Below the pieces are notes generated by a model, which was not told the DNA's origin, searched no databases, and saw only the letters and a program-made list of their open reading frames with translations. From Nitrospinaceae bacterium (GTDB lineage: Bacteria; Nitrospinota; Nitrospinia; Nitrospinales; VA-1), in contig BQJC01000007.1 in NCBI GenBank assembly GCA_021604505.1, positions 1 through 38,270 on the forward strand: DNA of 38,270 nucleotides, given 5' to 3'. Below are positions 6,715 to 38,270 of the stretch, piece after piece; positions within the stretch are counted from its first letter, which is position 1; each line of letters opens with the position of its first letter. Position numbers and translations under genes: made by a program.

Positions 6715-9700
6715 TCAAAGTTTCTTTAAAATTTTCTGAGCCGTGAGAATCATTTTCTGATTCCCCTGTTTGGCGTCCGCCTGGGATAAAAACGTCCGCA
6801 AATGCTTTTTCGATTTTCTTAAATCGATGCCTTGATACTGAATGCCCAGGTAATAATGCGCCGGCAAAAAATCCGGGTTCAACTCCAGCGCTTTTTCCAT
6901 TTCCTTGAGGGCTCGTTGAGATTGTTTTTGCAGCGAATACGCCAATCCCAAATAAAGCCGGACTTCACTGTCCCCAGCATACCATTCGAGCACCTTCTCT
7001 AAAACCTCCGCGGCGGCTTCGGCTCTGCCTGTTGATATATAAAGCTTACTGAGAGCCACCGAGCCAAAAACATAATACGGATTGAGTGCTAAAGATTTTT
7101 GATAGGCCCTTTCCGCTTCATCATAACGGTTGAGAGCGTTGAACACATTCCCCCGGTTCAAATGAGTCATCACATTGTCGGGGTCCAATCGCAGGAGATC
7201 ATCATAATAACCGATGGCCTTCATGAAATTGCCCGAATTCACTTCTTTCCTTGCCAGATCCAGAAGTTGGTCGATTCTGGCGCGGCGCTTGATCTCAGCC
7301 ACCTGGCTTTCCGAGCGATCCACGGTGGACAACTCTTTAAGAGCCTCCCTTGTTTTTCCGTCATCGGAAGAACTGAATTTAATGAACGCCGGGACCACCT
7401 TTATATAGGGTGTCAATTGCCGTACCAGAACATCCCGTTCATCCCGGTAAATGTATTTGGGAGCATTGAACTCCAGAAGAGAGTTGTCATCCGTATGAAG
7501 GGGAGCGTCGCCGCTGAATTTAATGATCTGATCGCGGTCCATGATCATCAGACTGAATAAGTCCCTCACACTTTTAATGCCGATGCGTTTGAGGTCCCGC
7601 GCGACGGCGTCCCTGGCTAGTAATTTTTCAACCTCTTCATACGGCAGGCCGTAGCTCTCAGAGGAACCGATCAAAAGATAATCGTCCCCGACAATGGATT
7701 CCCACATGGTCACGTGGGGAAAAACTTCCGTAAAGGACCTGGTGATGGATTTAAAACTTTCGGGCGACATATTCGTATGCACCCAAATGCAGGCCACCCC
7801 GTTTGGGCTCAACCGGTCCTTGAGCAAATTAAAAAAATCAAGGGTGAACAACGCGCCCACACCGGAGATCCAGGGGTTGGAAGGCTCGGATATGATAACG
7901 TCGTATTTTTTGTCGCTCAAGGCCACATGATTGCGGCCATCTTCCAGAATCACCTTCAATCGTTCATCGTTCAGAGCCTGATGATTGAACGGGCCGAAAT
8001 AACGCGACCCTTCTATCACGGCGGAAGAAATCTCGACCAGATCGATCTCCTTCACGGGAAACTGTTCGACGGCTCCCAGAGTGATCCCGCTTCCCTGCCC
8101 GATCACCAGGGCCGTTTGCGGGTTCTCCTGGAAAATCATGGGCAAATACCCCGAGAGCAGCTGAGTCCGCATGTCCAGCGCCAGCGAGGCATCGGTTTTA
8201 CCATTGACGCGCAGAAAAATATTTCCCGATACGGCGAGTTCCGTGGTCACCGTGGTGTGGGTTCCTTCCATATAAAAGAGGATCTTGTTGGCCTTCAGTT
8301 CCGCTTCCTGCAAATCCTTGATCCGGTAGGGCATGAAAGACCCGCTCGAAATAACGGCTTTATCCCAGGCGTCGACGCTGCGGCCTCCCAGCACACAAAG
8401 GATCACCATGAGCGGCACGCCATACATCTTCAGTCGCGAACTCAAGCTGGAAGAAAACAGGAGCAGGACAGCCGCCAGCGCAACATTGATAAAAACCGCC
8501 GTCAAAACGGAGTTCTGGATGCCCAGCACCGGCACCATGAGAAACCCGCCAAGAAAGGAACCGACGATGGTTCCCACCGTGTTGGACGCATAAACCCGTC
8601 CAACATCGCGTCCCAGGTTGGAAAGCCCATGGGTTAAAAGTTTCACGACAACCGGAAACTGCCCTCCCATAAAAAAAGTGGGGACAAACAGCAATGAAAA
8701 AATAATCAAAAAATTCGACCACTGCACCACCGCGAAATCAACATCCCAGTTCTGGTACACCCACCGGTTCACAAAAGGAATTTCTCCGAAAAAAGGCAGA
8801 GCCAAAAGAGCCGAAGCCGCAATTCCTATTTGCAGAAAACCAAAAACTTTAAGCAGGTCTTTGAAGCGCGTCACCCAGCGTGCAAAGAAAACCGTTCCCA
8901 ACGCCAGACCGAGAATGAATATCGTCAGAATCAGGCTGAACGCATAAACCGATGATCCCAAAAGCAGAGATAAAATCCGGTTCCAGGTGATCTGATAAAC
9001 CAAAGCACAGAAACCGGAAACCCCAAACCCAAGCAGGATGAACCGTTCTTTAAAAGAAATTTTTTCCGACCTGATTTCTCCATCCGCAGATGACGGTTTT
9101 TGCGCACGGTTTAGACCGGGTCGGAAAATAAGAAAAATAATGCCGGCGATCCCGATATTGAAGGCCGCCGCAAGCTCAATAGTCGCACTGACTCCCCAGA
9201 GCCGCATAAAAATGAACGCGCTGGTGAAAGCTCCGAAGACAGCGCCAAAAGTATTGACCGCGTACAAGGTGCCAACATCCTGGCCGATCAAATCCGGTTC
9301 CCTGGACACAAATTTGCTGAGCACCGGAAGCGTGGCTCCCATAAAGGAAGTGGGTATGATAAGAATGGCCGCGCAGACTAAAAAACGGTAAAAACTGGAT
9401 ACCGAGTAGGAGGTTTCCGAACTGAGATAGATGGATTTGAACAAAGGAAACGCCCAATCGATGAGACTGGGAATGGCCAGACAGTATAATCCGATAGCCA
9501 CTTCGAGCAGGGCGTACAAAGCGAGGGGATTGAAACGGCGATCAATGATCCGCCCGCCCACAAAACTTCCAAGCGCCAGGCCCCCCATGAAGGTGGTGAG
9601 AACCGTGGCGATTGAATAATGCGTGTTGCCCATGACCAGGGTCAACAAACGCGTCCAGACCACCTCGTAGATCAATCCGGTGGCGCCGGAGACGAAAAAA

Positions 9701-9744
9701 AAGAGAAAAACCCAGATTCTTGAAATGGGATTTAAAGAAGACAA
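6715..9744 (-). CDS. Membrane transporter-like / spermidine-synthase-like / TPR fusion protein
   Basis: The 1009-residue product has three parts. Residues 1 to about 450 hold about 13 membrane helices in two similar halves, each beginning with a G-LIYEVVWTRLL-type motif (SGATGLIYEVVWTRLLTLVM; SGFCALVYQITWNRILSLLL). This is typical of the membrane domain fused to spermidine-synthase-like proteins. Residues about 470-760 are a SpeE-like methyltransferase fold, with the nucleotide-binding ALVIGQGSGITLGAVEQF, DLVEISSAVIEGSRYFG and VIISEPSNPWISGVGALFTL. Residues about 830-1009 are TPRs. Family members are often called polyamine aminopropyltransferases, but the substrate here is unproven. The start is TTG; its Shine-Dalgarno is weak, yet the first helix begins only about 10 residues later as in relatives. 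It follows the SUMF1-fold gene by 18 bp, so the two are probably cotranscribed. Confidence 0.88.
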   Translation of the reverse strand: MSSLNPISRIWVFLFFFVSGATGLIYEVVWTRLLTLVMGNTHYSIATVLTTFMGGLALGSFVGGRIIDRRFNPLALYALLEVAIGLYCLAIPSLIDWAFPLFKSIYLSSETSYSVSSFYRFLVCAAILIIPTSFMGATLPVLSKFVSREPDLIGQDVGTLYAVNTFGAVFGAFTSAFIFMRLWGVSATIELAAAFNIGIAGIIFLIFRPGLNRAQKPSSADGEIRSEKISFKERFILLGFGVSGFCALVYQITWNRILSLLLGSSVYAFSLILTIFILGLALGTVFFARWVTRFKDLLKVFGFLQIGIAASALLALPFFGEIPFVNRWVYQNWDVDFAVVQWSNFLIIFSLLFVPTFFMGGQFPVVVKLLTHGLSNLGRDVGRVYASNTVGTIVGSFLGGFLMVPVLGIQNSVLTAVFINVALAAVLLLFSSSLSSRLKMYGVPLMVILCVLGGRSVDAWDKAVISSGSFMPYRIKDLQEAELKANKILFYMEGTHTTVTTELAVSGNIFLRVNGKTDASLALDMRTQLLSGYLPMIFQENPQTALVIGQGSGITLGAVEQFPVKEIDLVEISSAVIEGSRYFGPFNHQALNDERLKVILEDGRNHVALSDKKYDVIISEPSNPWISGVGALFTLDFFNLLKDRLSPNGVACIWVHTNMSPESFKSITRSFTEVFPHVTMWESIVGDDYLLIGSSESYGLPYEEVEKLLARDAVARDLKRIGIKSVRDLFSLMIMDRDQIIKFSGDAPLHTDDNSLLEFNAPKYIYRDERDVLVRQLTPYIKVVPAFIKFSSSDDGKTREALKELSTVDRSESQVAEIKRRARIDQLLDLARKEVNSGNFMKAIGYYDDLLRLDPDNVMTHLNRGNVFNALNRYDEAERAYQKSLALNPYYVFGSVALSKLYISTGRAEAAAEVLEKVLEWYAGDSEVRLYLGLAYSLQKQSQRALKEMEKALELNPDFLPAHYYLGIQYQGIDLRKSKKHLRTFLSQADAKQGNQKMILTAQKILKKL

Positions 9745-22854: not shown

Positions 22855-23234
22855 GATGTCAGTAGGTGGTTCTGTGGATCCGGGAAACAACTATTTATAA
22901 CATAAATCACTATAATTCAAATAGTTAATAATATTTTCCGCGTTCCATCTTCGACGGAGCAACGAGGGGCCTGTTACTCATGAAATTCGGGTTAAAAAAT
23001 CTGCAACTGCTTCTTTTTTAAGGAAAATATTTCCTGCATGCCAGCATTAACCTGTTTTTTGAGTCATTTTTATTATAAGATAGAGATCCATTCATCCAAG
23101 CGGGAATTTTTATCTCGAAAAACCTTAATGCGCGAGATTGAGGGCAGCCCGCACATGGATCCTTGGCCTGTACCTAATCATATATAAACCACCGATTGAA
23201 CGATTCAATCATACCGATACGTAAGAGGATTGTA
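22855..23234. other. Regulatory-looking gap upstream of the sulfite/nitrite reductase gene
   Basis: No convincing gene. It contains two inverted repeats: AGGAAA-ATA-TTTCCT at 23021-23035 and GATTGAA-CGA-TTCAATC at 23194-23210. The second lies just 24 bases before the reductase start. GAGG with a six-base spacer precedes the ATG at 23235. No clear -35/-10 pair stands out. Confidence 0.4.
23194..23210. promoter_or_regulatory. Perfect 7-bp inverted repeat before the reductase gene
   Basis: GATTGAA and TTCAATC flank CGA. The site lies between any promoter and the ribosome-binding site, so it could be an operator for a repressor or a short leader hairpin. The binding factor is unknown. Confidence 0.4.
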
Positions 23235-25631
23235 ATGGACATCAAAACATTGAATATTCCCGATGAGGTCAAACGGGAGATCGAAGAATTTGCGGCGGAA
23301 GTCGAGCGGCGTAACCGTGGCGAGGTGCCTGAAGAGGAATTCAAGCGGTTCCGCCTACAGCAGGGCATCTACGGCCAACGGCAGGATGAAGAACAAATGG
23401 TGCGCACCAAACTGCCGCTCGGAAAAATCACTGCCGACCAGTTATATTGCCTGGCCGAATTCGCAGACAAATATTCGCATGGGATTTTACACGTCACCAC
23501 GAGGCAGGACATTCAGTTTCACTACGTGAAATTGAAGGACGTCCCCCAGGCCATGCAGCTTCTGGCGGACCACGGCCTGACCACCCGCGAAGCCTGCGGC
23601 AACACCGTGCGTAACGTCACCGCCTGCCACAAGGCGGGCACCTGCGCCGGCGAAGTATTCGACGTCACGCCCTACGGGAAGGCCGTCTCCAGATATCTCC
23701 TGCGCCATCAATTGACGCAAAACCTGCCGCGTAAATTTAAAATCAGCCTCGGCGGATGCGCCGGATGCGGTCTGGCCCCTATTCACGACATTGGCTTGAA
23801 AGCCCTCGTTCGCGAGGAAAACGGCAAGGAGGTCCGCGGTTTTAAAGTGTTGTTCGGCGGCGGGCTCGGTTCCTTCCCCCATGCGGCGAAATTGTTAAAG
23901 GAATTTGTTCCCAGCGAAAACCTGTTGAGGGTCTGCGAAGCTGTCGTCAGTGTGTTCGACAAATATGGGGACAAGGTGAATCGCAATAAGGCGCGGTTTA
24001 AATTCGTGCTGGACAAGTTGGGTCAGGAAAAAACCACCGAACTTTTCGAAGAAGAATATGCCGCCCTGGAAGGCAAGCATTACGATCCCATAGAGATTCA
24101 AGAGGAAAGCATTCCGGAAATCCCGGTCTACACCCCCACTTCAGAATTCGACGGTGATCCTGCATTTTTGACCTGGAAAACCCGTAACACCTCCGAACAA
24201 AGGCAGGCAGGATTTTTCAACCTGCAAATCAAACTGCTTCTCGGAGATCTGGACATTCCGCAAGCAAAGGCCATTGCCAAAATAGCGGATTCCTATGCCG
24301 GCGGCACAATTGTCAATACCGTCAATCAGAACATGATGATCCCCTGGGTCAAAGAAGACGCGTTTGGCGCAATCTACGGCGAATTAAAAAAGGTCGGTCT
24401 GCACCGCGCAGGTACGGAAGAAGTCCGGGACATCACCTGCTGTCCGGGTTCGGAAACCTGCAATCTGGGCATCACCGCTTCCAGAGGCCTGGTCGCGCAT
24501 TTGAATGAAAAAATGGACAACAACGGGCTCACCTTCTCCGAAGACCTGGAGCATCTGTCTATCAAAGCCAGCGGCTGTCCCAATTCCTGCGGACAACATC
24601 ACATCGCCTCGATCGGCTTTCACGGCGGCGCCAAAAAGGTGAACGGTGTGCTTGCGCCCCATTATGAAATTTTTCTTGGCGGGCGGGTTTCCGAGGACGA
24701 AGTGGTATTCGGAAAACCGGTCATAAAAGTTCCCGCTAAAAACGCCCCCGATGTCGTGCGAGCCACCATCGACGATTACAAGGCGCAAAAAAGCGGCGAT
24801 GAAACCTTTGGCGAATACTTCGACCGCCAGGGTAAAAAATACTTCAAGGATTTGCTATCCCCGCTGGTGAAGCTGTCGGATATTGAAAAAGCGCCTGAAA
24901 GCTATATCGATTTCGGTTCAACCGAGAAATTTTCCCTGGAAGACAGAGGTCAGGGAGAATGTGCGGGCGCCATGACGGACTTGATCCAAAACCTGATATC
25001 CGATGCGGACCGGGCCAACTTTCAAGGCAGACTCGCCTTTGAGAAGGGAAACTATCTCGAGGCGCAGGAGAAGGCCAGCAAAGCGCTGGTTGCCTGCTCA
25101 AGGGCCTTGCTGGCAACGGAAGGCATCGACTTTAATGAAGACCGCGATTGCCTGTTAAAGTTTCAATCCCTGATCGTCGATATGGAAATCGTTTCCTCCC
25201 GATACGCCGATTTGATCGATCACTATGATGACGCCTTGGAATCACCGGACAAGAAAAAGGCCGAGTGGTGGCTCAAAGAGACTCATGATCTCGTGGAAGA
25301 ATGCAAACAGGTCAATGAAAAAATGCAAACTGAGAAAACCTTGAGAATTCGAGTCGCTTCCTCCGAAAAGAAGGCGCAGAAGGCCAACGGCAAAAAAACA
25401 GCCGCCGACAAGCACGTCAGCATTGACCTTCTGGGGGTGAAGTGTCCGTTCAACTACGTCAAGACGAAACTCAAACTGGAAACCATGGAAACCGGAAACA
25501 CGCTGGAAGTTCTTCTGGATGAGGGAGAACCGGCGGAAAACGTTCCCAAAAGCATCCAGAACGACGGGCATAAAATGCTTTCGCTTGAAAAGGATAACGG
25601 CCACTTCAAGCTGCTCATAGAAAAGGTCTGA
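23235..25631 (+). CDS. Sulfite/nitrite reductase (sirohaem, 4Fe-4S) fused to a HEPN-like linker and TusA domain
   Basis: The 798-residue protein has three parts. Residues 1 to about 560 are a two-repeat sirohaem sulfite/nitrite reductase. Ferredoxin-like repeats include RTKLPLGKITADQLYCLAEF and LLGDLDIPQAKAIAKIADSY. The cluster/sirohaem ligands are Cys403 and Cys409 (CCPGSETCNLG) with Cys448 and Cys452 (ASGCPNSCGQHH). Residues about 580-700 are all-helical and HEPN-like. Residues about 727-798 are a TusA sulfur-carrier domain with its cysteine, Cys737, in GVKCPFNYVK. Extra cysteines at 121, 131, 137, 175 and 178 could hold a second cluster. The TusA cysteine suggests sulfide made at sirohaem is passed on as a persulfide, favouring sulfite over nitrite as substrate; this is inference. 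The start ATG has GAGG six bases upstream. yicC follows by six bases. Confidence 0.9.
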   Translation: MDIKTLNIPDEVKREIEEFAAEVERRNRGEVPEEEFKRFRLQQGIYGQRQDEEQMVRTKLPLGKITADQLYCLAEFADKYSHGILHVTTRQDIQFHYVKLKDVPQAMQLLADHGLTTREACGNTVRNVTACHKAGTCAGEVFDVTPYGKAVSRYLLRHQLTQNLPRKFKISLGGCAGCGLAPIHDIGLKALVREENGKEVRGFKVLFGGGLGSFPHAAKLLKEFVPSENLLRVCEAVVSVFDKYGDKVNRNKARFKFVLDKLGQEKTTELFEEEYAALEGKHYDPIEIQEESIPEIPVYTPTSEFDGDPAFLTWKTRNTSEQRQAGFFNLQIKLLLGDLDIPQAKAIAKIADSYAGGTIVNTVNQNMMIPWVKEDAFGAIYGELKKVGLHRAGTEEVRDITCCPGSETCNLGITASRGLVAHLNEKMDNNGLTFSEDLEHLSIKASGCPNSCGQHHIASIGFHGGAKKVNGVLAPHYEIFLGGRVSEDEVVFGKPVIKVPAKNAPDVVRATIDDYKAQKSGDETFGEYFDRQGKKYFKDLLSPLVKLSDIEKAPESYIDFGSTEKFSLEDRGQGECAGAMTDLIQNLISDADRANFQGRLAFEKGNYLEAQEKASKALVACSRALLATEGIDFNEDRDCLLKFQSLIVDMEIVSSRYADLIDHYDDALESPDKKKAEWWLKETHDLVEECKQVNEKMQTEKTLRIRVASSEKKAQKANGKKTAADKHVSIDLLGVKCPFNYVKTKLKLETMETGNTLEVLLDEGEPAENVPKSIQNDGHKMLSLEKDNGHFKLLIEKV

Positions 25632-37522: not shown

Positions 37523-37599
<77 letters not shown>

Positions 37600-38047: not shown

Positions 38048-38096
38048 AAAAAAATAAACCCTGAGAGAAAATAACCAACTCTTTCTCCCAGGGTTT
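38048..38096 (-). terminator. Intrinsic terminator of the right-edge gene
   Basis: On minus, AAACCCTGGGAGAAA (38096-38082) pairs with TTTCTCTCAGGGTTT (38070-38056), with one mismatch, and a run of T at 38054-38048 follows. It begins 32 bases after the stop of the edge gene. Confidence 0.85.
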
Positions 38097-38127
38097 ATAT
38101 TAACCTAATTGTGATTTTAAAAAACCG

Positions 38128-38270
38128 TCAGTACATCAGTTCATTCCACTGAGTGACAGCTTTCTGTCCGTTTCTTTCTTTGTTTTGACCATTCCAGATC
38201 GCGATTGCCATCGGGGTTTTACCCGTTTTGAATTGCGTGTCGTTCTGGTCGCTGTTGCTCAGGGAACGTT
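38128..38270 (-). CDS. C-terminus of an ethylbenzene-dehydrogenase / nitrite-oxidoreductase gamma-subunit-like haem domain protein (partial)
   Basis: Only the last 47 residues are present. They read RSLSNSDQNDTQFKTGKTPM then AIAIWNGQNKERNGQKAVTQ, ending WNELMY. The pattern A-x-W-(N/D)-G-x-x-x-E-R-(N/D)-G-x-K-(A/S)-V-x-x-W is the closing signature of the haem-b binding gamma-type domain of DMSO-reductase-family enzymes (EbdC, DdhC, NxrC group). In these enzymes the subunit passes electrons to or from the molybdenum subunit complex in the periplasm. Which enzyme it belongs to cannot be decided; the nitrite oxidoreductase option is appealing but unproven. A terminator follows. The gene continues to the right of the window. 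Confidence 0.65.
   Translation of the reverse strand, partial: RSLSNSDQNDTQFKTGKTPMAIAIWNGQNKERNGQKAVTQWNELMY

Follow-up and report, generated by a model that had tools for sequence, protein, structure and literature searches.

Nitrite oxidation with a duplicated nxr operon is established biology in Nitrospinota. N. gracilis 3/211 carries two nxr operons whose NxrB proteins are 100% identical; this part of the genome could not be assembled and was closed by PCR, and the gamma subunits NxrC1 and NxrC2 are described as having a haem-b-binding domain and a Sec-type signal peptide (Lucker et al., 2013; PMC3578206). Two nxrA copies each are likewise reported for N. gracilis and two further Nitrospinae in PMC8026999. 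For the haem b of EBDH, PMC8840923 gives Met and Lys as the ligands, stated as residue types.

The locus analysed here comes from a different species of the same phylum as N. gracilis and appears to share with it, as far as that genome is described in PMC3578206, the duplicated operon, the haem-b-binding domain and Sec-type signal peptide of NxrC, and the assembly gap at nxrB. The window, i.e., the whole stretch of DNA analysed, is the complete contig C7 (38,270 bases) of a 3.64-Mb genome in 14 contigs. At its right edge, a minus-strand frame of 46 residues plus stop (38128-38268) remains open to the end of the contig. We are confident that this frame holds the C-terminal 46 codons of nxrC, the gene for the haem-b (gamma) subunit, located in the periplasm, of a Nitrospina-type NXR; of two nxr operons in the genome, the second is its most likely origin. 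The features concerned are as follows.

38131-38268, minus strand: 3' end of nxrC, equivalent to residues 290-335 of the 335-aa copy on contig C9; the gene runs off the contig
38128-38130, minus strand: stop codon (TGA) of the nxrC fragment
38054-38098, minus strand: terminator-like hairpin just after nxrC, with 18 pairs and a loop of 9, followed by a U-rich tract
37523-37599: tRNA-Arg (anticodon CCT), between an LCAT-like gene and the nxrC tail
L017:9894-10901, minus strand, contig C9 of the same genome: complete nxrC, 335 aa

The earlier note had described an edge gene ending in the closing motif of haem-b gamma subunits of the DMSO reductase family, and this description is borne out by the profile and structure matches, which place the fragment in the type II group; its count of 47 residues included the stop codon. 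The fragment matches TIGR03477 (E 2.6e-9, positions 159-203 of 206) and PF09459 (E 2.3e-4, positions 199-236 of 236), in both cases under the curated whole-protein cut-off, because it is only 46 aa long. It also matches residues 269-314 of PDB 7b04_C, "Nitrite oxidoreductase subunit C" (E 2.3e-5). Designed ankyrin repeats outranked 7b04_C in the fragment search and were rejected, as their scores summed weak repeats with no single significant stretch. The conserved closing motif of the gamma-subunit family is present in the tail (MAIAIWNGQNKERNGQKAVTQW), and a five-protein alignment has 22 invariant positions among the 46 of the tail, including the Lys residues (e.g., K325 of the C9 copy), with a Met also conserved. 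The tail is not a chance resemblance, because the complete NxrC on C9 and the NxrC genes of relatives end in the same way.

The complete C9 copy allowed the family to be assigned over the full length of the protein. Its end is 85% identical to the C7 tail at the amino acid level; of the 46 codons, 31 are the same in both copies, 8 have only silent differences, and 7 encode another residue. The C9 protein scores 105.5 bits against PF09459 (cut-off 33.3) and 135.2 bits against TIGR03477, so that even at full length it stays below the whole-family cut-off of the latter model (169.85). Its top match among solved structures is 7b04_C (E 1.2e-34, 123 bits over 335 aa), which we take to be NxrC of the anammox enzyme of "Ca. 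Kuenenia stuttgartiensis". This match spans both halves of the protein, yet 7b04_C is a distant homolog of the Nitrospinota subunit. EbdC (2ivf_C) belongs to the same family and has the same closing motif, but it matches much more weakly (E 2.8e-17) and lacks a middle stretch of roughly 100 residues of NxrC (query 150-255 unmatched). The N-terminus of the C9 protein, read by eye, is hydrophobic and ends in AGA. Across the genome, a profile search found PF09459 matches at seven places, five of them above the cut-off, reminiscent of N. gracilis, for which PMC3578206 describes several NxrC genes and alternative NxrC genes.

To look for the partner subunits, we used as queries NxrA (P0003) and NxrB from L059, a Nitrospinaceae MAG locus where nxrA (1153 aa), nxrB (425 aa), and nxrC follow one another. 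Among solved structures, both queries match the 7b04 subunits best (E 0 for NxrA and E 3.1e-187 for NxrB), and they are far closer to these than to nitrate reductase, EBDH or 4ydd, the last carrying no more specific name than DMSO reductase family type II enzyme. In our genome, residues 1-116 of nxrA lie at the start of contig C5 (C5:3-350) and residues 1-79 at the start of C3 (C3:1-237), each 97% identical to P0003, so that catalytic NxrA is encoded in the form of two 5' ends; the C5 piece has a twin-arginine start, NRRKFLQ, as read by eye. The end of C9 holds residues 400-425 of nxrB, then a torD-like chaperone gene and nxrC. Close NXR alpha and beta pieces were found only at contig ends, at 97-100% identity to Nitrospinota NXR, and profile searches together with searches by the L059 queries found no whole nxrA or nxrB anywhere in the assembly. 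Three PF00384 places (one on C4, two on C1) were considered as whole nxrA and rejected, as none was returned by the search with P0003; a weak TIGR03478 match on C3, considered as nxrB, is only 35% identical to NxrB over 54 residues. The guess that the edge gene is NxrC-like is thus supported by the C9 copy with its nearest relative 7b04_C, by the nxrA and nxrB pieces of the genome, and by the whole operon of a congener. By its gene content, the organism is a probable nitrite oxidizer of Nitrospinota.

In that congener (G002), a single contig (C17) carries a 391-aa gene, nxrA, nxrB, torD, nxrC, a 567-aa gene, and a 572-aa gene. On C3 of our genome, nxrA adjoins the 391-aa gene, and on C9 nxrC adjoins the 567- and 572-aa genes; C3 and C9 are therefore taken as the two ends of operon 1, as their flanking genes match those of the whole operon in G002. 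By elimination, C5 and C7 are likely the two ends of operon 2. The earlier note proposed reading on to the right of the window, but the contig stops at position 38,270. Since C7 ends inside the gene, the nxrA-nxrB pair would precede its nxrC copy beyond the contig edge. Operon 1 has torD between nxrB and nxrC at its C9 end, whereas for N. gracilis PMC3578206 describes nxrABC and places a TorD-like gene next to NxrC3. An intervening torD is seen in some Nitrospinota (L017:9894-11983, L051, L039, L040, and L107); in others, torD-nxrC lies apart from nxrABC, one MAG having both L047 and L053 and another both L050 and L054.

The C7 copy might instead be a stand-alone nxrC, with no nxrA-nxrB before it, like the TorD-linked NxrC3 or the other extra gamma subunit genes that N. 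gracilis has outside its two operons (PMC3578206). We compared 44 related loci, all from named genomes. Both nxrA and nxrB, whole or cut, lie upstream of nxrC in 11 of them, and NxrB, whole or as its 3' part, in 15; most of the remaining loci break before reaching nxrB. In eight loci (L032, L044, L053, L054, L055, L058, L060, and L062), the sequence upstream of nxrC is longer than 4 kb and shows no NxrB match, which speaks against a universal nxrB-nxrC link and would favor a stand-alone gene. By contrast, the second nxrA start, on C5, must have a partner downstream, and no nxrC end at a contig edge other than that of C7 is left to serve as one; moreover, C7 breaks inside nxrC, as a repeat would predict. 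A stand-alone gene is therefore unlikely in our judgment, and membership in a second operon is the reading that we follow below.

The break itself is probably due to the duplicated operon. In 19 of the 44 related loci, the contig ends no more than 500 bp from the nxrC match on its upstream side; such an end lies downstream in only 2. At the contig ends of our genome, the starts of C3 and C5 have 240 bases in common at 97%, and C7 and C9 have 132 bases in common at 90%. In each of G003 and G004, two contigs end in the same nxrC codon, with 97-100% identity between the paired ends over 141-196 bases. These terminal overlaps fit a two-copy repeat: the two operons would be near-identical over nxrA-nxrB, and probably over much of nxrC, at which the assembly would have broken, leaving the middle pieces out of the genome bin. 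Two operons alone do not fully explain the positions of the breaks, as C7 breaks at nxrC residue 290 and C9 earlier, at nxrB 400; a third copy, strain variation, or the loss of short contigs might possibly account for the later break of C7. A further pair of nxrC tails was seen in G001, L109 (8245-8483) and L110 (63-301), with 239 bases in common at 97.5%. L110 continues for more than 5 kb towards the expected gene start with unrelated ORFs (coaD-like and aminotransferase-like by eye), and its nxrC tail is a truncated copy or part of a chimeric contig.

That nxrA and nxrB are often missing from assemblies of such genomes, with contig breaks at the duplicated operon as the probable cause, has a practical consequence. 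Among the five genomes of this genus, whole NxrA is present in one and whole NxrB in one, and screens for nxrA or nxrB only would therefore miss nitrite oxidizers.

It could also be argued that the C7 fragment is a pseudogene or a partial duplicate at the contig edge, given that only 46 codons are visible and that the residue differs from the C9 copy at 7 of them. We regard this as very improbable, as the frame is open to the edge, nearly half of its positions are invariant as noted above, a hairpin follows the stop codon, and the contigs of other genomes end in the same gene, suggesting that the gene was cut by the assembly and is not truly truncated. The gamma subunits of the ethylbenzene, dimethylsulfide, selenate, and chlorate enzymes also belong to PF09459/TIGR03477. 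The fragment matches both of these shared models, but that it derives from one of these other type II enzymes is the least credible reading of all, because the match to the EBDH gamma equivalog model falls far below its cut-off, no other solved structure comes close to 7b04_C in matching the C9 copy, and the alpha and beta pieces of the genome are those of a Nitrospinota NXR. The C7 fragment, read as nxrC, is thus an ordinary ortholog of a known subunit, already described in relatives, and not a new system.

Drawn by homology from PMC3578206 and PMC8840923, the mechanism would begin with the oxidation of nitrite to nitrate by NxrA, a predicted Tat-exported Mo-bis-MGD protein. The electrons would pass from NxrA to the Fe-S clusters of NxrB, and the putative haem b of NxrC would hand them on to a downstream cytochrome c. 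The conserved Lys and Met of the tail are candidate haem ligands in the C7 and C9 copies.

The location of the probable second operon differs from that in three congeners. The C7 nxrC tail is flanked by the tRNA-Arg and the LCAT-like gene, whereas the second nxrC tail of G001, G003, and G004 lies beside flagellar genes (flgF/G and flgI). In our genome, the corresponding flagellar block is contiguous on contig C2, and nxrC is absent from it. The flagellar neighborhood of the congeners was considered as a means to extend C7 and was of no help, given this contiguous block without nxrC. The difference in site may be new, though it is a small point of only mild novelty. It is possible, although we lean somewhat against it, that the second nxr operon has changed its chromosomal position within a single genus, with recurrent copying between the operons keeping the copies alike. 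The LCAT-like gene is present in two of the four congeners searched (G001 and G004), on contigs without nxrC; therefore, no congener reveals the sequence beyond the edge of C7.

The hairpin downstream of the nxrC tail is unusually stable: the 71-nt stretch containing it has a minimum free energy of -23.8 kcal/mol (z -4.75), and none of 200 shuffles was as stable. A consensus terminator scan did not list the hairpin at 38054-38098, because the loop limit of the scan is 8. Seven further sites in the genome, perhaps other tRNA genes, match parts of the tRNA-Arg stretch at 78-86%. Elsewhere in the window, the 811-aa product of positions 23196-25631 has a C-terminal TusA domain in addition to two nitrite/sulfite reductase stretches, and positions 6715-9744 encode a 1009-aa protein that combines an MFS-like part, a spermidine-synthase domain, and TPR repeats.
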